DNA of 64,000 nucleotides from Myxococcota bacterium (GTDB taxonomy: Bacteria; Myxococcota_A; Bradymonadia; UBA7976; UBA1532), in assembly GCA_963169045.1 (NCBI GenBank), contig CAUJDF010000052.1:1-64000 (forward strand), read 5' to 3'. Position numbers and translations under genes: made by a program. Below the pieces are notes generated by a model. That model was not told the DNA's origin. It made no database searches and saw only the letters and a list, made by a program, of their open reading frames with translations. Below, one piece after another: positions 986-12,909 of this stretch. Positions within the stretch are counted from its first letter, which is position 1. Each line of letters begins with the position of its first letter.

Positions 986-3313
986 TCATCGCCCGGCGCG
1001 ACGGCGGCGCCGCAGGCCGGCGCCGAGCGCGAGCAGCACGAGGGGCAGGGGGGCGCCGACGCCGCCGACGGCTGCGCAACCGCCGCCACCGCCGCCGCCC
1101 TCGTCCCCTTCGTTGGGGGCGCCGTCGACGTCCGGACCGGCGTCGAGCCGCCCGCCGGGGCCGGCGTCGGGCCCATTGTCGCCGCCGGTGTCGGCCGGGC
1201 CGCCGTCGAGCTCCTTCTCGTCGGGCCCGGCGTCCGCGGGGTGGGTCTCGGGGATGATCGGCCACGCGGCGACGCACTGCGCCGTGGTGCCGACCGTCTC
1301 GCAGCGCTGGTGCTGCGGGCACTGCACACCAAGGCACGGATCGGGGATGCACCCGCCGCGGAAGCAGATCTCGGCGTTGCCGCACGCCACGCCGTCGCAC
1401 GGATCGGCCACGCAGGCGTTGTTGAGGCAGATCTGGCCGTCCTCGCAGCCCACCGGCGCGCACCCGAGCGGCTGGCACAGGCCGTCGACGCAGGCGTCGG
1501 TCGCGGGGCAGCTGACGCCGGCGCACGAGAAAACGCACTGGCCGTTGCGGCAGAACGAATCCTCGCCGCACTGCACGCCGAAGCACGGGTCGCGCTCGCA
1601 ACCGTCCGGACGGCACCGCCCGCCGCGCGGGCAGCCGAGGAAGACGCAGTGGTCGGGGCCGCACGCGCCGAGGTGGCAGATCTCGCCCTCGCCGCACGTG
1701 ACGCCGGCGCAGGGGTTCTCGCAGCCGCTCTGGCCGCAGACCTCGCCCTCGCCGCACTCGCCGAAGACACACGCGGGCACGCACACGCCGTCTTCGCACA
1801 GCGCCTGCTCCGGGCACGCGCCGTCCTCGCCGCAGCGCGGCAGGCACCGCCCCTCGTAGCAACCCTCGCCGGCGGGGCACGAGTCGCCCTCGTCGACCTC
1901 GCCGTCGCAGTCCTCGTCCCGGCCGTTGCAGATCTCGGCGGGCTTCGCGCCGCACGTGCCGCACTCGTTGCGCACGCCCTCGTCGATCACGCCGTCGCAA
2001 TCGTTGTCGACGAGGTCGCAGACCTCGCCCACCGGCGAGATGTCGGGCAGGCACCGCACGCGACCGAACGCGCAGCCCATCGTGCCGCGGGAGCACTGGC
2101 CGGAGAGCGCCGTCGCGCAGGACTCCGGCGCCACGAGCGGCGCGTTGTCGGGCAGCTGGTCGACGAGGCCGTCGCAGTCGTTGTCGACGCCGTCGCAGAG
2201 CTCGGCGCCGGTCGGCGTGCAGAAGACGCGGTCGCAGGCGTCGCCGTAGCCGTCCTGGTCGGTGTCGCCCTGGTCGCGGTTGATGATCTTCGGGCAGTTG
2301 TCGCAGACGTCGCCGACGCCGTCGCCGTCCTCGTCGATCTGGTCGGGGTTGGGGACGGTCGGGCAGTTGTCCTCGGGGAGGCAGATCTCGTCGAGGTCCT
2401 CGTCGGAGCACGGCAGGCCGACGCCCCAGCGGGTGTGCTCGCAGAACTCCTCGGTCGTCTCGCCGGGCTCCAGCGGTCCGAGGTCGTAGCGCATCGCCAG
2501 CGTGACGTCGAAGCCGTCGTCGGTGACGAGGTTCATGTCGGCGTCGGCGTTGTTGCCCCGGCCCTCGTTGAGGTCGTTGCCGAGGATGGTGCAGCCGCCC
2601 TGCATGCTCTCGATGCGGCCGCGCTGCTCCGAGTACCGGCCGACCTCCCACGAGGTGAGGCGGCGGTCGTCGCGGTCGCCGCCGCTCATGCCGATGAACG
2701 TCGACGGCTCCTCGGGGTTGTCGCCCTCGTCGAACTCCCACAGGGTGCGCGGGGCGCCGAGGCCGGTGGCGCCGTAGTCGTTGCCGAGGCCGCCGTTGAA
2801 GAAGAGGTCGCCGTCGATGTACGGCGTCAGCGACAGCACGTCGATGCGCTGGCCGGACACGTTGGTGAACGTGTAGCAGCGCTCGAGCACCGTGCAGTCC
2901 AGCCGGTAGCGCGCGTTCACCTCGAGCCCGTTCACCGCGTACTGCGCGATGACGTCGGCGCCGTCGCGTTGGACGAGCGGGTTGACGCGGTCCATCTCGC
3001 CCGACTCGAGCCAGGTCCCCGAGGTCACGCCGTTCGACGTCGTGCAGAGGAAGGCCATCGCCTCGAAGACGGTGCTGACGAGGCCCTGGGCCTGGCCGGG
3101 CAGGTCCATGAACGGGTCGTAGCGGGCGCCGCCGCCGATCTCGACCGCCGTGCCCGTCGCGCCGTAGGCGTCGATCTCGAGCTCCACCCGGCCGAGGTCG
3201 GGCATGCACATCGCCGGATCGGTGGTCAGGCGGGCCTCGAAGTTGTTCTGGGCGAGCGCCGGGAGGGCCAGGAGGCTCAACGGCACGGCGAGCAGCGGAC
3301 GGATGATCGACAC
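986..3313 (-). CDS. Large Cys-rich exported protein with MopE-type and thrombospondin-3-like motifs and a MYXO-CTERM tail
   Basis: About 775 residues. The GTG start at 3313 sits just after GGGAGG; a GTG 12 nt upstream would overlap that site. A signal peptide ends at ...ALPALA-QNN. The first ~270 residues are non-repetitive. An Asp-rich calcium-binding segment ([15 protein letters not shown]) follows, then three MopE-like units ([10 protein letters not shown] and variants) spaced 30-45 residues apart. Next come about twelve short Cys-rich modules of the type C.G..C.....C, and an Asp/Gly linker. The tail is Gly-run, Cys, hydrophobic segment ([12 protein letters not shown]), RRRRR. That is the MYXO-CTERM architecture, which in Myxococcota is processed by a myxosortase for surface anchoring. 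Probable surface or matrix protein binding Ca2+ or Cu; ligand unknown. Confidence 0.85.
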
Positions 3314-3421
3314 GGGACCTCCCACGAAGGGAGGAATTTTGCAGGGGCGGCCGAGGAAAAGGCAACCCGCGCGGCCGGTTCCGGTGGGGGCGGCGCGGCC
3401 GGGCGTCGGCCGGGCCGGCGC

Positions 3422-4447
3422 TCAGGCCCCGCCGCCGAGGCGGCGGACGATCGCCTCGGCCATGCGCTCGAGCGGCGCCTCGTCGTTCGCGAGGCCCGCC
3501 TCCCGCACGGAGCGGGGCATGCCGTCGACGATGCAGGAGGACTCCGACTCGGCGATCACCTCGCCGCCCGCCGCGCGGATGGCGCGGGCGCCGCGGAGTC
3601 CGTCGTCGCCCATCCCGGTGAGCACCACGCCGAGCACGCGCGCCCCGAAGGCCGCGGCGGCGCTCTCGAAGAGCAGGTCGACCGACGGCCGGTAGGGCAG
3701 GTGGACCGACCCGTGCTCCACCGCGGCGACGACCGCCGCTTGACGACGCGTCAGGCGCAGGTGGCAGCCGCCGCGGGCGAGCACGGCGAGGCCGGGGCGC
3801 AGGGGCACCTCGCCGTCGGCCTCGACCACGGTGAGCTGCGCGGCGGCGTCGAGGCGCTGCGCCAGCGCCTCGGTGTATCCGGCGGGGATGTGGAGGGCGA
3901 CGGCGACGGGCACGGGCAGGTCCGCCGGCAGCGCCGGCAACAGGCGGGCGAGGGCCTGCGGGCCGCCAGTGGACGTCCCGACGACCACGACGTCGGCGCG
4001 GCGCGCGCCCGGCGCGACCGTCGCCGGGCTCGCCGCGAGGGTAGGCAGACGCGGCCGGGCCGAGGCGGCGGCGCGGACGGCGCGGACGAGCGCCTCGCCG
4101 AGCGTGTAGAGCCGGTCCGTCGCCAGCGCCGTGGGCTTCTGCACCAGCTCGACGGCGCCCATCTGCAGCGCCTCGACGCACTGGGCGTTGTCCCGGCCCG
4201 AGACGCTCACGAGGACGACGCGCGGCGGGTCGTCGTGCGGCAGCGCCGCCATCACGCCCACGCCGTCCAGGCCCGGCATCGTCAGGTCCAGGGTGACGAC
4301 GTCCGGGCGGAGCATCGCGATCTTCTCGAGCGCCTCGAGCCCGTCGCGCGCGATGTCGACGACCTCGATGCCGGGCGCCGCGGCGAGCGTCTCGCGCAGC
4401 ACCTTGCGCGCGAACGCCGAGTCGTCGACGACGAGCACGCGGATCAT
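3422..4447 (-). CDS. cheB: CheB: chemoreceptor glutamate methylesterase/deamidase
   Basis: 341 residues, normal CheB length. The N-terminal receiver has D8-D9 and phospho-acceptor D54 (TLDLTMP). The C-terminal esterase domain has the catalytic set: Ser in GTSTGG (about 158), His in HIPAG (about 185) and Asp in TGMGDDG (about 279). It removes methyl groups from the MCP and acts in adaptation when phosphorylated by CheA. It is last in the chemosensory operon; its ATG overlaps the CheR stop codon by 4 nt (ATGA). Confidence 0.96.
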   Translation of the reverse strand: MIRVLVVDDSAFARKVLRETLAAAPGIEVVDIARDGLEALEKIAMLRPDVVTLDLTMPGLDGVGVMAALPHDDPPRVVLVSVSGRDNAQCVEALQMGAVELVQKPTALATDRLYTLGEALVRAVRAAASARPRLPTLAASPATVAPGARRADVVVVGTSTGGPQALARLLPALPADLPVPVAVALHIPAGYTEALAQRLDAAAQLTVVEADGEVPLRPGLAVLARGGCHLRLTRRQAAVVAAVEHGSVHLPYRPSVDLLFESAAAAFGARVLGVVLTGMGDDGLRGARAIRAAGGEVIAESESSCIVDGMPRSVREAGLANDEAPLERMAEAIVRRLGGGA

Positions 4448-5271
4448 CGCGCCGCCCTCCGGTACAGGAAGACGCCGGCGACCTCCTCACAGGTCAGCGC
4501 CGTGCCGAAGCGCAAGAGCGACTCGGACACGCCGAGCAGCAGCGCGCCGCCCGGCTCGAGCGCCCGCGCGAGCAGCTCGCCGACCCGCGCGTGCGTCGCC
4601 TCGGCGAAGTAGAACAGCACGTTGCGGCAGAGCACCGCGTCGAACGTGCCGAGGGCGGCCACCTGCGCGGGGTCGAGCAGGTTGACCCGGCGCCAGTCGA
4701 CGGCGCGCGCGATGCGCTCGCCCACGCGGGCGCCGCCCGGATCGTCGACGACCCAGCGGGCGGCGGCGCGGTCCGGCAGCGCCCGGGTGGCGCGCAGCCC
4801 GAACCGGCCCGTCCGGGCCCGCTCGAGGGCGCGGGCGCTGATGTCGCTCGCCACGATGTCGACGCGGTCGAGCAGGCCGCGCTCCTCGAGCAGCATCGCC
4901 AGCGTCAGCGGCTCCTCGCCCGTCGCACAGGCCGCCGACCACACCCGCGCCCGGCCCTTGCGCGCCACCGCCGGCGCGACGACGTGGTCGATCAGCACGT
5001 CGAGCGGCTCGAGCTCGCGGAAGAAGTAGGTCTCGTGGACGACGAGCGTCTCGACCAGCGCCGCCATCTCGGCGCCGTCGGGGTCGTCGTACCGGAGCAG
5101 GTAGTAGTAGTCGAGCAGCGAGTCGAAGCCGGCCTCGACGGCGCGGGTCGACACCTTCTGCGCCAGCAGCTCGCGGTCGCGCGGCGCGTAGCACAGGCCC
5201 GTCCGCTCCTCGATGAGCGCGCTCAGGATCGCGAAGACCTGCGGCGAAAGCGGGAGCGTCCCCATCGTCAC
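4444..5271 (-). CDS. cheR: CheR: chemoreceptor glutamate methyltransferase
   Basis: 275 residues, SAM-dependent CheR family. Visible motifs are HETYFFRE (family form NETxFFR), the SAM-binding SAACATGEEPLTLAM and the later DISARALERA and CRNVLFYF blocks. It methylates glutamates on the MCP encoded in the same operon. The GTG start overlaps the HEAT-gene stop (GTGA); an ATG two codons in (5265) is an alternative start. The MCP has no C-terminal NWETF-like tether, so CheR would act without one. Confidence 0.95.
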   Translation of the reverse strand: MTMGTLPLSPQVFAILSALIEERTGLCYAPRDRELLAQKVSTRAVEAGFDSLLDYYYLLRYDDPDGAEMAALVETLVVHETYFFRELEPLDVLIDHVVAPAVARKGRARVWSAACATGEEPLTLAMLLEERGLLDRVDIVASDISARALERARTGRFGLRATRALPDRAAARWVVDDPGGARVGERIARAVDWRRVNLLDPAQVAALGTFDAVLCRNVLFYFAEATHARVGELLARALEPGGALLLGVSESLLRFGTALTCEEVAGVFLYRRAAR

Positions 5272-7604
5272 CCGCCGAGCAGCACGGCGCAGATGCGGCG
5301 CACGGCGGCGTCGGGATCGCGGCGGCCGGCGCGGCGCACGGCGCCCGTCGCCTCGTCGGTGCCGATCGCCGCGAGCGCCGTCACGATGGCGCGGCGGGCC
5401 GGCGCGCCCGAGCGGTCGAGCGCCGCGATCAGCTCGGCGGTGGCGCCGAGGCGGGCGAGGGCAGCGGCGAGGATCGGCGCGCGCTCGTCATCGGCCGGCG
5501 CCAGCGCCGCGACGAGCGCGGACACGCGCCCCGACACCGGCGTCGCGAGGGCGGCGGCGACCCGCGCGCGCAGCGGCTCCTGGTCGAGCAGGCCCGCGAG
5601 CTCGTGCGTCGCGCGCTCGCCCGGTCGCGCGGCGAGGACCCCCAGCGCGGCGTTGCGCAGTCCGGCGTCGTCGTCGCCGGCGGCCTCGAGGAGCACCGCC
5701 GCGGCCTCGGGCGCGTCGAAACCTGACAGCGCGGTCAGCGCCACGAGACGCGTCGCCGGCTCGTCGTCGCGCGCGGCGGCGCACAAGAGCGGCAGCGACG
5801 CCGGATCGCCGCCGAGGCCGAGCCCCACGAGCGCTGCCCGCCGGATGTCGGCGTCGGGCGTCGCCGCCAGCGCGCGGAGCGCCTCGCCGGCGGTGGCGGC
5901 GTCCAGCCGGGCGAGGGCCTCCACGGCGGCGACACGCACCTGCCCCGCCTCGTCGTCGAGCCGCGCCACCACCGCGGGGACGGCGGCCCGCAGGCCGAGG
6001 CGGCCGACCGACTGGCAGGCGGCATAGCGCACCCACGCGTCGGCGTCGTCCAGCGCCGCCACGACCCGTCCGTCCACGCGCGCGTCGTCGGCCCGGTGCC
6101 CGAGCGCCCGCACCGCCTGCGCCCGCGTGCGCGGCGCCTCGCTGGCGCTCGCCGCGAGCAGCGCCTCGACCGCGCCGGCCTCCTCGACGAAAGGCAGGCC
6201 CTGCAGCGCCGCGTCGCGGACGCGCGGATCGGGATCGCCAAGCCCGGCGAGCAGGACGGGCAGCGAGTCCGGCGCACCGAAATACGAAAGAATCCGAAGG
6301 GATGCGCGACGCACCCGCGGCGACGGCGAACGCGCGCCCGCCGTGGCGAGGCGCCCTGCCTCCGCGCCGCCGAGCGCCTGGAGGGCCGCCGTCGCCGCCT
6401 GGGAGACGCCGGCGTCCGGGTCGTCGAGGCGCGCGAACAGGCCGGGCACGGCGCGCAGGTCGCCGACGCGCCCGAGCGCCGCGCAGGCCACCGCCCGCAC
6501 CTCCGCCTCCGGGTCGTCGAGCGCGGCCAGCAGCGCGTCGAGCGCGCTCGCGCCGAGCAGCGGCAGCAGCGCCACCTTGCGCGCCGCGTCGGCCGTCCGG
6601 ATGCGCTCGGCGAGCGCCGGCCCCGGGTCGTCGCCGAGCGCCGCGAGCGCCGCCGCCGCCGCCGCGACCACGGAGAGGGGACCGGCGAGGAGCGCCGTCA
6701 GCGCCGGCGCCGCGCTCGCGTCACCGAGCGTCGCGAGCACGCGGCACGCGGCCGCCTGCTCGTCCGCCGAGGCGCCCGGCAGCGCGCCCGCGATCGTCGC
6801 CGTGGCGCCGGCGGGCGCCGCCTCTCGCAGCGCCCGCTCGGCGGCCTCCGCGTGGCCGTACCGTTCGCGCTGCCGCTCGAGCAGCGTCGCCAGCGCCAGC
6901 GTCACGACCCGCGCGCGGTCGGGCGCCGCGCCCGCGAGGGCGCCCGCCAGCGGCGCGACGGCGCCCCGCTCGCCCGTCTCCGCGAGCGCCCGCGCGGCCT
7001 CGTCGGCGTACATCGGCTGCTCGAGCAGCGCGGCCAGCGGCGCGATCGCCCGCGGATCGCCGCTCCGGCCGAGCACGTCGATGGCGGGGAAGACGCGGAA
7101 GAACCGCTCGCCGCCGACGAGCGCGACGAGCGTGTCGACCGCCGCGCGGCCGCCCACGCGCCCGAGCGCCTCGAGCGCCGCCAGCGCGACGTTGTCGTCC
7201 GGGTGCTCGAGCAGCGGCTCGAGGGCGGGCAGCGCCCGCGGGCGGCGGCGCCGGCCGAGGATCTGCGCGGCGTCGGCGAGGACCGCCGGCTCGGGGCTCG
7301 TCAGCAGCTCGGCGGCGACGGCGTCCTCGACGTCGCCCGTCGCGGCGACGAGCGCGTCGACCGCCGCGGCGATCCGACCCTCGTGGTCGCGCCGCTCGCG
7401 CAGGCAGCGACAGAGCGCTGCGTGCGCCACCTCGCCGAGCGAGGCCAGCCCGGCCACCACGGCGCGCCGCACCGCCCAGCTCGGATCGCTCAGTCGCTCG
7501 AGGAGCGCCGGCACGCCCGCCTCGCCCGCGGCGACCAGGCGGTCGACGTGCTCGATGCGGCGGCGATCCGCCTCGGAGAGCCCGGGCGACGGACGCTGGC
7601 TCAC
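5268..7604 (-). CDS. HEAT-repeat protein embedded in the chemosensory operon
   Basis: 778 residues made almost wholly of ~30-residue PBS-lyase-type HEAT repeats (pattern DP...VR..A..AL...G...A...L...L.D). These are recognisable from about residue 25 to the end, which suggests 20 or more repeats. There is no signal peptide or membrane segment, so it is a cytoplasmic alpha-solenoid, most likely a protein-binding scaffold. It lies between MCP and CheR with 4-nt overlaps on both sides (GTGA each), so it is probably made with the signalling complex. I recall a HEAT-like protein in the Che7 cluster of Myxococcus xanthus, but orthology is not shown here. It could be the input element for the sensorless MCP (inference). 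Confidence 0.9.
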
Positions 7605-10099
7605 GCCTTCTCCTCGGGGGCGCCGCGCTGCCGCTCGCCGTTCCCGCCGGCGGGACCCGGGCGCAGCGCCAGCGCCGCCTCGCTCAGGAGGGCGCCGTTC
7701 TCGGCGATGGCGCGCAGATCGGGCACGCTCTCGGCCAGCGCCTGCGCGAGGCGCGCGTTGTCGGACACGAGCGTCCGGGCGCGGACCCGCACGCCCGTCA
7801 GCGCCTGCGCCAGCTCCGCGCTGCCGACCGCCTGCTCGGCGGCGGCCCGGCCGATCTCGTTCATCGCCCCGGCGTGGCGCGCCGCCAGCCCCGAGAGCGA
7901 TCCGAGGGCCTCCGCCTGCTCGCCGACCGCGCGGGCGACCTGACGCGCGAGGCGGCGCACCTCCTCGCCCTCGGCGGTGAGGCCGGACAGCGTGCGCGCC
8001 TGGCCATCGGCGGCGCGGGTGACCTCGGCGGCCAGCTCGGCCACCGTCCGCGCCGATGCCGCGATCTGCTGGTTGGCCCGGGACTGTTCGGCCACGGCGC
8101 GCGCCGTCTGCATCGCCTGCTTGCGCGAGTCGGACATGGCCCGAGCGATCTCGCCGGCGCCCTTCGCCTGCTCGGCGAGGCCGGCGAGGGTGCGCTGGGT
8201 CAGCGCGGTGACCTCCTCCGCCGCCGTCGCCGCGATCTTGAGCGCGCGCGACTGCTCGCCGAGCCCGTTCGACGCCTGGCGCGTCAGGGCGCGCATCCGC
8301 GCCGCGGCCTTGGCCAGCTCGCCCGCCGCCGCGGCCTGCTCGCCGCTCGCCTGGGACATCTGCTCGGCGCCCGTGCGCAGGTGGGAGGTCGCGCGCACCG
8401 TATCGCGCAGCGCGCGCGCCTGCTCCACGGTCGCGTCGCGGGTCTGCTTCGCGAGCCGGCGCATCTCGGACGCGCCGCCGGCGAGCGCCTGCGTGGCCTG
8501 CGTCTGCTCCGCGGCGGCCCGCGCGATCACGCGCCCCTCGTCGTTGACCCGCGCCGCCACCTGGATGACGCCCTGGACCGACTGGAGCTGCTCGGCGCCG
8601 GCCTGCTCGATGCTGCGCACGGCGCGCCCGAGCTCGTCGATCCCCTGCAGGATCGAGCTCAGCGCCTGCCCCGCGTCACCGGCGAGCCGCGATCCCTCCT
8701 CGGCCGCCTTCGCGCCCTCGACCACCGCGCTCACCGCCTCGCGCGTCGTCTTCTGCAGGCCGCGCACGATCTTCGCGATGTCGGCGCTCGCCGTGGCGGC
8801 GCGATCGGCGAGCGCGCGGATCTCCTCGGCCACCACCGCGAAGCCGCGCCCGTGCTCGCCGGCGCGCGCCGCCTCGATGCTCGCGTTGAGCGACAACAGG
8901 TTCGTGCGGTCGGCGATGAGGTTGATCGTCTGCACGATGTCGCCGATCTCCTCCGCGCGCTGGCCGGTCTCCTTCATCACCGAGACCGACTCGGTCATCG
9001 CCTTGCGGATGCCGACCAGCCCCTCGATCGAGCGGGCCACGATGGCGCCGCCCTCCCGCGCCGTCTGGGTCACGCGATCGGAGGTCTGACGCGCGCCCTC
9101 GACGATGGTTCCGATGCGGCGCGTCGCCGCTTCGAGCTGCCCCGACGCGGCCGCGCCGCCCTCGGCGAGGGTGTTGATCTGCTCGGCGCCGCGCGCCACC
9201 AGGGCCGCGGAGCGCGCGAGCTGCTCGACCTGGGTGGCGTTGGCGTCGACGAGGGCCGCCGTCCGCTCCGCCGACGCGGCGACCTGCTCCACCGAGGCGG
9301 CGACCTGCGTGGCGTTGCTCGCCGCCTCCGTCGCCGCCACCTCCTGGGAGCGCGCGCTCTCGGCCACCGCGCGGCTCGAGCGCGCCATCTCCTCGGCCGT
9401 GGCCGCCGTCTCCTCGACCGCGGTCGCCATCTCGGCGCCGTCGGCCGCGAGGCGCTCCGTCGACTGCGTCAGCGCGCCGACCTGGCCGGCGACCGCGCCG
9501 ATGCGCTCGCCGACGGTCTGCGCGTCGGCCGCGAGGCGGCTCGTGCCCTTGGCCATCTCCTCGATCGTCGAGCCCACCTCTTCGATCGCCGCCGCCGCCT
9601 CCTCGCCGCGCGCGGCCGTTTCGCGCACGCTGCTCGCCGCCTCCGTCGTCCCGGCGAGGAGCTCGGCGCTCGCCCCGGCGAGGCGCTCGGCGGTAGCCGC
9701 GGAGCCACGCACCGCCGTGGCCGACTCCTCGAGCGCGCGGGCCGTCTTCTCGACCGACTCCGCGAGCCGCGCGCCGTCCTCCTTCACGCCGGCGACGGAG
9801 GCGGCGACCTGCTGCAGGCCGCTCGACGTCGACGCCAGGCCGTCAAGCGTCTCTTTCACCGACCGGCTGACCTGCGACTGCGAGGCGGCGAGCTCGGCGA
9901 CGGTCGAGCCGATCTCCTCGACGTTCGCCGCCACCGCCTCGATCACGGTCCGCGTCTCCGCCGCCGCCGCGATCTGGGGCGCGGCGCCGGCCTGCAGCCG
10001 GGCGGCGGCCGCCGCCATGGCGCGCGCGCCTTCACCCGCCGTCTGCAGGGCGTGGGCGAGGCCCTGCGCCCGGGATTCAGTCTGCGCTTCCGTCGCCAT
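7601..10099 (-). CDS. Cytoplasmic methyl-accepting chemotaxis protein with no visible sensor domain
   Basis: 832 residues from ATG 10099, which has GAGGAG 7 nt upstream; a TTG at 10117 would overlap cheW further. There are no transmembrane segments, HAMP-type input or recognisable sensor fold. Nearly the whole protein is Ala/Glu/Gln-rich heptad coiled coil. The conserved MCP hairpin tip ([20 protein letters not shown], then [14 protein letters not shown]) lies near residue 405, so about 395 residues precede it and 425 follow. Usual MCP signalling arms are roughly 85-225 residues. The ascending arm contains many EE/A-type motifs that could be methylation sites. It is a cytoplasmic receptor in the manner of FrzCD, coupled to CheW/CheA. 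There is no C-terminal CheR-binding pentapeptide. Confidence 0.92.
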
Positions 10100-10526
10100 C
10101 GCCCTGCTCCTCGCCAACGACCTGCAGGTGGTCGATCAACATCACCAGGCGGCCCGCGACCTGCGCGACCGCCTTCACGAACCCGGAGGCCTGCCGCCGG
10201 ATCGCGGCGGGCGGCGGCTGGAACGCGTCCGCCGCGATGCGCACCACGTCGCGCGCGCTGTCGACGAGCAGGCCCACGCGGCGGGCGCCGGCCTGCACCA
10301 CCACCACGCGCGTGTCGAGCGTGGGCTCCGCCGGCGGCAGCCGGAAGCGTGCGCGCAGGTCGACGACCGGCACCACCGCGCCGCGGATCTGCACGAGCCC
10401 GGCGACGTGCTCGGCCGCGCCCGGCACGCGCGTGGCGCCCTCGAAGCTCTCCATCACCACGACGTCGTCCGCGGCGACGACGTAGGTCGCGTCCGCCACG
10501 CGGAACATGATGTGCAGACTGCTCAC
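10077..10526 (-). CDS. cheW: CheW: chemoreceptor-kinase coupling protein
   Basis: 149 residues. The CheW beta-barrel signature is present: [20 protein letters not shown], then [20 protein letters not shown] and [18 protein letters not shown]. It links the MCP to CheA. The GTG start at 10526 overlaps the CheA TGA by 4 nt, and its 3' end overlaps the MCP start by 23 nt. The acidic tail ([12 protein letters not shown]) is short. Confidence 0.93.
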
Positions 10527-12526
10527 CGCGCCGCCTCCCGCTCCGCGCCGGCCACCGCCCCGCTCAGCGCCACGAGGTCGAGCACCAGCGTGGGGCGCCC
10601 GTCGCCGAGATCCGTCGAGCCGGTGACGCCCGGCACGCGCACCAGCGGATCCTCGAGCGGCCGCACCACCACCTCCTGCTGGCCGAGCAGGCGGTCGACG
10701 CCGAACGCGAAGGGGTGCCCCTGTCGGCGGACCACCATCGCCTTGCGCGCCGCGCCGCTCGCGCCCGGCAGCCGGAACGCGGCGTCGAGCGCGACGACCG
10801 GGATCGCCTCGCCGCGGCGCTCGAGCAGCCGCACCGCCAGGCCCTCCGCCGGCGCCGGCGCGCCGGTCATCGCCTCGGGCGACAGCTCGACGATCTCCTC
10901 GATGCTCGCCACCGGCGCCGTGAAGCGCTGCGCGCCCGCCTCGAAGGAGAAGGCGTCGACGATGGTGATCGACAGCGGCACGCGCATGACGAACGTCGTG
11001 CCGCGGCCGGGGACGCTCTGCACCTCGAGCTGCCCGCCGAGCTGCTCGACCGCCACCTGGCGCACGATGTTCATGCCCATCCCGCGGCCGCTCGTGGTGG
11101 TGGCCTCGGTGAGCGTGGAGAGCCCCGGCATCGACAGCAGCTCGAGCAGCGCGGCGTCGGTCGCCGGCGCGTCGCGGCCCGCCTGCGTCGCGACCCGCGC
11201 CCGGTCGACGCCGCTGCCGTCGTCGGCCACGGTGAGCTCGAGCTGGTTGTTGGCGCGCTCGCGGCACTCGACGCGCAACAGGCCTTCGGCGGGCTTGCCG
11301 GCGCGGGCCCGCGCCTCGGGCGCCTCGATGCCGTGGTCGACCGCGTTGCGCAGCAGGTGCACCACCGCCGGGAAGAGCCGGTCGGCCACGCTCTTGTCGA
11401 GCTCGGCGCGTCCGGCGGCGACCTCGACCCGCAGCGGCTTGCCGCTCTGCCGGCTCAAGCCGCGCACGATCAGCGGCACGCGGTCGAGCATGTCGGCCAC
11501 CGAGATCATCCGCGCGCGCATGATCGCCGCGCGCATGTCGCGGAGCTGGCGCCGGTTCTCCTTGAGGATCGGCAGGATCGAGCGCAGGTCGACGCCCTTC
11601 TCCGCGAGCCCCGCGAGCGCGGCCTCGAGCCGGTAGCGGTGGACGACGAGCGCCGACAGCTTCTCGAGCGCGTCGTCGAGGCGCGCCACCTCGACGCGGA
11701 TGACGCCGGCGCGGACGGGCTCGAGGGCCGGCCCTTCGTCCTCGGGCAGGGGCGCCGGCGCGGGGGCGCGGGCCTCGGCGACGGCGGCGGCCTCGGCCTC
11801 GTCGACCCCGGCCGCCTCGGCGACGCGCGCCGGCGTCTCCCCGGTGAGCAGCAGGATGGCGAAGACGAGGCCCGCAGGCGCCGCGTCGCTCTTCGGCGTC
11901 GACAGCGGCACGACCTTCACCACCTGCCCGAGCGCGGCGACGCGCTGCTGGACGGCGGTGATCGTCAGGCCCGCCGCGGCGCGCTCCGCCGACGGCCGGA
12001 AGTCGATGCGCACCGCGCGCAGGCCGCGCGCGACGCCGAGCTCGAGCTCCTGCCGCTCCGCGGGGCCGAGCCGCGCCGCGAGCGCCGGCTCGAGCGTCAG
12101 CCGGCCGCTCTCGGTCGGCTCGCCCGCCACCGTCGGCAGCGCGTCGAGCGCGGCGATCAGCGCCGCCGGCGCGGAGGGGACCGGCCGGCCGTGCGCCAGG
12201 GCGGCCACGCGCTGCTCGATGCCGGCGAGCGCCTGCACCAGCAGGTCGAGCGCCTGCGCCGGCAGCCGGCCGGCGGCGCGCTCCGCGGCGCGGAAGACCG
12301 TCTCCATCGCGTGGGCGAGGTCGACGATCGGGTCGGCGCCCACCATGCCCGACAGGCCCTTGATCGTGTGCAGCGACCGGAAGAGCTCGCGCACGGCCCG
12401 CGGGTGCGGGCGCCCCTCGCGGAGCGCCGCCTCGACCTCGCCGATGTGGTCGCGGGCGGACTTGAGGTGGTCCTCGACCTCGGCGAGGTAGCCGGCGAGG
12501 AACTCGTTGACGTCGAAGGTGCTCAC
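10523..12526 (-). CDS. cheA: CheA: chemosensory histidine kinase
   Basis: 667 residues. HPt domain at ~1-110 with phospho-acceptor His53 (FRSLHTIKG). An Ala/Pro-rich linker region holds no obvious CheY-binding P2 domain. The dimerisation helices are followed by the ATPase domain, with N-box HLLRNAVDHGIE (~390), G1 DDGSGVD (~434) and G2 GRGMGMNIV (~479). A CheW-like P5 domain runs from ~530 to the end. The GTG start at 12526 overlaps the response-regulator stop (GTGA). There is no C-terminal receiver, unlike FrzE. Expected partners are CheW, the MCP, the CheY-like protein and CheB. Confidence 0.95.
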   Translation of the reverse strand: MSTFDVNEFLAGYLAEVEDHLKSARDHIGEVEAALREGRPHPRAVRELFRSLHTIKGLSGMVGADPIVDLAHAMETVFRAAERAAGRLPAQALDLLVQALAGIEQRVAALAHGRPVPSAPAALIAALDALPTVAGEPTESGRLTLEPALAARLGPAERQELELGVARGLRAVRIDFRPSAERAAAGLTITAVQQRVAALGQVVKVVPLSTPKSDAAPAGLVFAILLLTGETPARVAEAAGVDEAEAAAVAEARAPAPAPLPEDEGPALEPVRAGVIRVEVARLDDALEKLSALVVHRYRLEAALAGLAEKGVDLRSILPILKENRRQLRDMRAAIMRARMISVADMLDRVPLIVRGLSRQSGKPLRVEVAAGRAELDKSVADRLFPAVVHLLRNAVDHGIEAPEARARAGKPAEGLLRVECRERANNQLELTVADDGSGVDRARVATQAGRDAPATDAALLELLSMPGLSTLTEATTTSGRGMGMNIVRQVAVEQLGGQLEVQSVPGRGTTFVMRVPLSITIVDAFSFEAGAQRFTAPVASIEEIVELSPEAMTGAPAPAEGLAVRLLERRGEAIPVVALDAAFRLPGASGAARKAMVVRRQGHPFAFGVDRLLGQQEVVVRPLEDPLVRVPGVTGSTDLGDGRPTLVLDLVALSGAVAGAEREAAR

Positions 12527-12909
12527 CCCGGCTGCGCCGCGCGCGCGTCGAGCAGCTCGGCGACCGCGCCGAGGATCTGTTCGGGCGCGAAGGGCTTCGT
12601 CAGGTAGCGGTCGGCGCCTGCCGCGAGCGCACGCTCGCGCGACGTCTCGTCGCCCCGCGTCGTCACCACCACGATCGGCAGCGCGCGGAGGCGATCTTGC
12701 GAGCGGACGAACTCGATGACTTCGAGTCCCCCGATGTCGGGCATGTTCAGGTCGAGGACGACGAGGTCGAAGGCCTCGAGCGAGAGCTGCTCGATGGCTT
12801 CGAGGCCGCTCGCCGCCTGACCGAACACGAGGCCGGACCGGGCCCGCAGGCAGGCGATGACCATCTGCCGCATCACCTGGCTGTCGTCGACCACGAGGAC
12901 CTTGGACAC
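12523..12909 (-). CDS. CheY-like single-domain response regulator
   Basis: 128 residues, receiver domain only. The acidic pocket D8-D9, phospho-acceptor D53 (VLDLNMP), the switch region VVTT and the Lys in LTKPF are all present. The GTG start at 12909 has GGAGGA 6-7 nt upstream. It is the first gene of the chemosensory operon and is coupled to cheA by a 4-nt overlap. It probably carries the CheA output. No flagellar or pilus gene is next to it, so the downstream target (motility, development or other) cannot be told from the window. Confidence 0.93.
   Translation of the reverse strand: MSKVLVVDDSQVMRQMVIACLRARSGLVFGQAASGLEAIEQLSLEAFDLVVLDLNMPDIGGLEVIEFVRSQDRLRALPIVVVTTRGDETSRERALAAGADRYLTKPFAPEQILGAVAELLDARAAQPG

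Follow-up and report, generated by a model that had tools for sequence, protein, structure and literature searches.

The closest described relative of the system reported here is the Che7 system of Myxococcus xanthus, whose operon lists CheY7, CheA7, CheW7, Mcp7, CheR7, and CheB7 in that order (locus tags 6965–6959). The receptor of this system, Mcp7 (MXAN_6962), was published as a member of class 40H (PMC3945109). Mcp7 is located in the cytoplasm, where it gathers in one or two clusters of high mobility, and CheW7 is one of its binding partners. An interaction between CheY7 and the HEAT protein Cpc7 has been reported, and Che7 has been connected with how aggregation and sporulation are coupled.

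Receptors of class 64H have 32 paired heptads, and in sandwich arrays two CheA/CheW baseplates flank opposed receptors in 12-nm hexagonal packing. Like the chemoreceptor (MCP) described here, the receptors in the sandwich arrays of Rhodobacter sphaeroides and Vibrio cholerae are cytoplasmic and lack a membrane anchor, and in V. cholerae about 35 nm separate the two baseplates (PMC3964821); a spacing of 31 nm applies to E. coli receptor fragments. FrzCD of M. xanthus is likewise cytoplasmic and has no ligand-binding domain, but differs in its size (417 aa) and N-terminal DNA-binding region (PMC6952110), and in its operon and localisation. The length class of an MCP sets both the partners with which it shares trimers and the distance of the kinase layer from the sensory end.

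A Che7-type operon

The window, by which we mean the whole stretch of 64,000 nucleotides that was analysed, contains a compact minus-strand operon with the gene order cheY-cheA-cheW-mcp-HEAT-cheR-cheB (Table 1). Neighbouring genes overlap by 4 nt, but cheW and mcp share 23 nt, and the cheY/cheA overlap holds only with the GTG start inferred for cheA. The mcp frame was found where the original prediction had placed it; its ATG at 10099 is preceded by AGGAG at a distance of 7 nt, and its stop lies at 7601. An alternative TTG start at 10117, 6 codons earlier, would give 838 residues, and this 838-residue numbering is used for domain, repeat, and model positions. Downstream of cheB, positions 986–3325 (minus strand) encode a MYXO-CTERM protein with MopE-like metal-binding motifs.

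Table 1. Features of the Che7-type operon and of the MCP in the window. Residues are given in the 838-residue numbering.
Feature	Position	Strand	Basis
cheB (CheB7-like)	3422..4447	-	Pfam, conserved locus order
cheR (CheR7-like)	4444..5271	-	Pfam, conserved locus order
HEAT-repeat protein (Cpc7-like), 778 aa	5268..7604	-	ORF, Pfam, NCBIfam, loci; 4-nt overlap with mcp stop
mcp (Mcp7 ortholog), 832 aa	7601..10099	-	ORF, Shine–Dalgarno (SD) at ATG, PF00015, 49 related loci
C arm, residues 509–788, 28-residue repeat rows beginning with the E-Q rung at +94	7754..8593	-	Repeat analysis
Fragment 150–680, predicted hairpin with both helices unbroken	8078..9670	-	AlphaFold model
MCPsignal Pfam match, residues 372–525	8543..9004	-	Pfam search
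Hairpin tip, residues 389–424, nearly invariant	8846..8953	-	Ortholog alignment
N arm, 28-residue repeat rows, residues 46–353	9059..9982	-	Repeat analysis
cheW (CheW7-like)	10077..10526	-	ORF frame, conserved in loci; GTG start inferred from 4-nt cheA overlap
cheA (CheA7-like)	10523..12526	-	ORF, Pfam, locus order; GTG start inferred from 4-nt cheY overlap
cheY (CheY7-like)	12523..12909	-	ORF, Pfam, conserved locus order

Orthologs and taxonomic distribution

Among 84,980 species genomes scanned, 49 relatives of the MCP were found that are full length or cut only by contig ends, with identities of 44–57%. Nearly all belong to Myxococcota, and their hosts include Myxococcus, Corallococcus, Pyxidicoccus, Hyalangium, Polyangium, Sorangium, and Minicystis as well as MAGs. 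The gene order of the window recurs at nearly all loci that are long enough to show it; at one exception, the gene for the HEAT protein precedes cheY rather than following mcp (L042:4503). At the M. xanthus locus (L079), the ORF read from a GTG at codon 43 encodes 821 aa, as published for Mcp7. Because of this match and the shared operon order, we assign the window protein to the Mcp7/Che7 family, and its gene is an ortholog of M. xanthus mcp7. Both proteins are long MCPs of matching length, with about 51% identity, no membrane segment, and MCPsignal as the only domain; the window protein comes from a different myxobacterium and lacks the outermost C-arm rungs. In M. xanthus, the published start, which yields 821 aa, is 29 codons downstream of an ATG that is conserved in the family (L079:9884; 850 aa), and the annotated start of Mcp7 may be too far downstream.

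Near the window organism, Che7-type systems are patchy: none of 12 genomes from the same family (G001–G012) contains a full-length relative, and these genomes gave tip matches only or none. Two MAGs labelled Planctomycetota (L052, L067) carry a complete Che7-type operon, which reflects either transfer or mis-binning. A Myxococcus-like Che7 locus was also found in a genome labelled Comamonas sp. KCTC 72670 (L045), a label that is probably wrong.

Domain content and arm lengths

The MCPsignal domain (PF00015) was recognised with 141 bits against a cut-off of 34.6 and is the only Pfam domain of the protein. Matches to NCBIfam models all fell far short of the cut-off and were limited to MCPs and generic coiled-coil proteins, and matches to SMC, Rad50, and MukB were set aside as generic coiled-coil similarity. 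The maximum 19-residue Kyte–Doolittle mean is 0.92, and no membrane segment was detected. The receptor is thus devoid of a membrane segment and of a recognised sensor domain, as had been proposed, and its tip lies near the middle: the tip glutamate (in EAARAG) occupies position 409 among the 832 residues (415 in the 838 numbering), close to the predicted position of about 405. This leaves arms of about 408 (N) and 424 (C) residues. As the orthologs are also near-symmetric (N arm mostly 413–417, C arm mostly 430–436 residues), this symmetry is not a matter of chance. At one locus, the C arm has 441 residues and the N arm is shortened to 303, with several N-arm deletions in the alignment; this asymmetry is either real or an assembly error (L072:6020-8254, plus strand).

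Sequence features of the arms

Between about −392 and +410 relative to the tip, most of 47 orthologs have no indel at all, the exceptions being a few sequences, mostly from MAGs, and the outer ends. In pairwise comparisons with the window proteins (30 residues trimmed per end, six cut or odd loci excluded), internal gap events per 100 residues numbered 0.03 in the MCP, 0.70 in the HEAT protein, and 1.05 in CheA; the three proteins came from one set of loci and had an equal mean identity of 0.50–0.51. The window MCP contains a proline-free stretch of 751 residues, and in most orthologs this stretch reaches about 830. The outer N arm of the Polyangium and Sorangium proteins may be kinked at about −308, where a proline occurs.

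When the family-averaged hydrophobicity of the MCP is divided into consecutive 35-residue blocks, 23 of 24 have a period of 3.5 residues, with one phase (R=0.97), compared with 3 of 19 blocks in CheA and none of 22 in the HEAT protein (R about 0.25). Apart from the tip, about 840 residues of family sequence show neither a stutter nor a module boundary. Phase and alignment give about 57–58 heptads per arm, which sets the protein apart from the 32 per arm of class 64H. Membership of class 40H would imply 20 heptads per arm and a match to an HMM whose score depends on sequence close to the tip; the heptads of the window MCP run far past 20 per arm. The protein also matches the Thermotoga maritima receptor 2ch7 (TM1143, class 44H) over 238 residues without a gap; 2ch7 is a cytoplasmic fragment of a membrane receptor and has about half the arm length of the window MCP or less.

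Superimposed on the heptads is a longer repeat. Throughout the family, the C arm carries an E-Q rung every 28 residues (four heptads) from +94, with a weak continuation to +402. Conservation of the rung glutamine is 90% or higher as far as +318 and about 70% from +346 on; in the window MCP, the rungs at +374 and +402 have been lost (none after +346). Lags of 28, 56, and 112 residues dominate in the N arm, with E-E or E-Q rungs at −117, −173, −229, and −285, and conservation declines toward the ends of both arms. The tip register and the 28-residue rung spacing are common to the Mcp7 family and class 64H. Among the regions examined in a distant genome (G057), those with a recognised tip belong to 64H-like membrane receptors with C arms of about 231–256 residues, in contrast to the window MCP with its arms of about 400 residues and no membrane segment. 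One of these receptors (L002), 64H-like by C-arm length, aligns without a gap from −269 to +202. The simplest reading of these alignments is that the Mcp7 arm would be a 64H-like arm lengthened by further 28-residue units.

Structure models and continuity of the hairpin

AlphaFold2 predicted only helix for the full chain (32 sequences, mean pLDDT 68), with symmetric breaks at residues 209–226 and 618–633, half-way along each arm (+/−200), where pLDDT falls to near 40. These breaks, and the end of 64H-like receptors at about +231, would fit a hairpin of standard or 64H length whose arms past about +/−200 fold back or form a hinged input or docking bundle. We folded residues 150–680 alone (31 sequences, 531 columns, no gaps), reasoning that a fold-in-half artefact would lose or shift the break and that a real hinge would keep it. 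The fragment model consists of unbroken helices of 268 and 260 residues (pLDDT 84), is helical at the former break sites, and superposes on the 2ch7 hairpin with a target TM of 0.74; at about 38 heptads per arm, it already exceeds 64H. The pTM is low in both models (0.33–0.34). As the break vanishes in the fragment, the kink of the full-length model at +/−200 is probably an artefact. Moreover, the family has no indel, proline, or heptad-phase change at this site, and the same 28-residue unit passes through it. We therefore regard a shorter hairpin with separate outer parts as unlikely. Unrecognised input modules within the arms, which the original prediction had offered as its alternative, find no support: no Pfam or NCBIfam domain other than MCPsignal, boundary proline, or insertion was found, and the heptad phase is unchanged throughout.

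The arms might also be helical and unpaired far from the tip, with their outer parts binding another receptor, the HEAT protein, or an opposed array layer. Conservation drops toward the ends, and covariation between the arms is weak or absent more than about 260 residues from the tip; at an alignment depth of Neff 26, however, the missing outer signal carries no weight. Against this arrangement, the arms are near-equal in length with an identical repeat period, and mutual information between them has a weak peak at i+j of about 9–12 that extends out to 260 residues. Charge complementarity between the arms is best at an offset of 9 over 120–395 (among 141 offsets), and side-chain volume shows nothing, so that this signal is no more than suggestive. 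The E/Q profiles of the two arms correlate best at +6 (r=0.35), which is not decisive because the 28-residue period is common to both arms, and paired deletions across the arms were sought, but internal indels are too few to use. Altogether, we consider unpaired outer arms improbable. That the length is a low-complexity artefact of slipping alanine-rich repeats without a structural role is scarcely credible: the protein has 25% alanine and 28-residue repeats, but slippage would be expected to produce length variation, of which there is almost none at about 50% identity between −392 and +410, and the outer repeat rows remain conserved.

Five observations support the proposal of an exceptionally long hairpin: an alignment with almost no indels, the long run without proline, the single heptad phase, the 28-residue repeats in both arms, and the two-helix fragment model. 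They favour a reading of the window MCP as one nearly unbroken hairpin with about 57–58 heptads per arm and a length of about 60 nm. The more specific claim of arms longer than 350 residues is supported in full by the sequence, and the trusted structure model reaches only +/−265; for the outer 130–150 residues of each arm, a continuous hairpin is supported by sequence features.

Proposed mechanism

We consider it likely that the window MCP is the Mcp7-type receptor of a Che7 system and a sensorless, near-continuous hairpin of about 57–58 heptads per arm that would form four-helix dimer bundles in free cytoplasmic arrays. Each chain would fold into one hairpin of two near-continuous helices, with this number of heptads in either arm, and two chains would associate as a four-helix bundle with a length of about 60 nm, as estimated from about 10.5 Å per paired heptad (about 600 Å; PMC6628036). 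We infer the bundle pairing, as the models are of monomers only. Since the tip and the operon are standard, docking of CheA and CheW at the tip, as in other MCPs, and methylation by CheR and CheB would be expected; free cytoplasmic arrays would be expected from the lack of both a ligand-binding domain and a membrane anchor. Input to CheA would most likely arrive via the arms, by partner binding, by methylation through the CheR and CheB of the operon, or by packing of opposed receptors. Candidate methylation-like motifs are located in the N arm at residues 63, 98, 168, 175, 231, 254, and 273. Output would most likely proceed via CheY acting on the HEAT-repeat protein of the operon. Arrays of such receptors would be thicker than those known, at 60 nm if interdigitated and 120 nm if end to end, as opposed to 35 nm in V. 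cholerae.

The window genome (9.0 Mb, 95% complete) shows only two MCPs, and the sensorless MCP is therefore probably the input point of its own system. The second (L115; G000:C58:312622-313086) is a receptor of 441 aa with hydrophobic N-terminal stretches and an adjoining CheW-like ORF, and is perhaps DifA-like. The MCP count in M. xanthus is 21.

Relation to known receptor classes

The Mcp7 protein family is already known. In the openly readable literature, we found no mention of the arm length of Mcp7; an earlier notice in the subscription literature is possible. The longest whole receptor has been estimated at 545 Å, with a coiled coil of 336 Å, and rare receptors with more than 32 paired heptads exist, which were left out and unnamed in that survey (PMC6628036). 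The coiled coil of the window MCP alone would measure about 600 Å, its arms being nearly twice as long as in any recognised class of receptors, and myxobacterial lineages share this conserved length. Tentatively, and with more doubt than confidence, Mcp7-type receptors might be set apart as a separate ultra-long class of about 57–58 paired heptads (about 60 nm), lacking a ligand-binding domain, with the rungs as input surface and arrays of 60–120 nm between baseplates. The presence of Mcp7 in the model organism M. xanthus makes both signal travel along a receptor of near-double length and the control of a sensorless receptor tractable.

In a Flavobacteriales MAG, a 654-aa MCP with two tandem hairpin tips (L083:8155-10119, plus strand) adjoins a protein with several CheW-like stretches.
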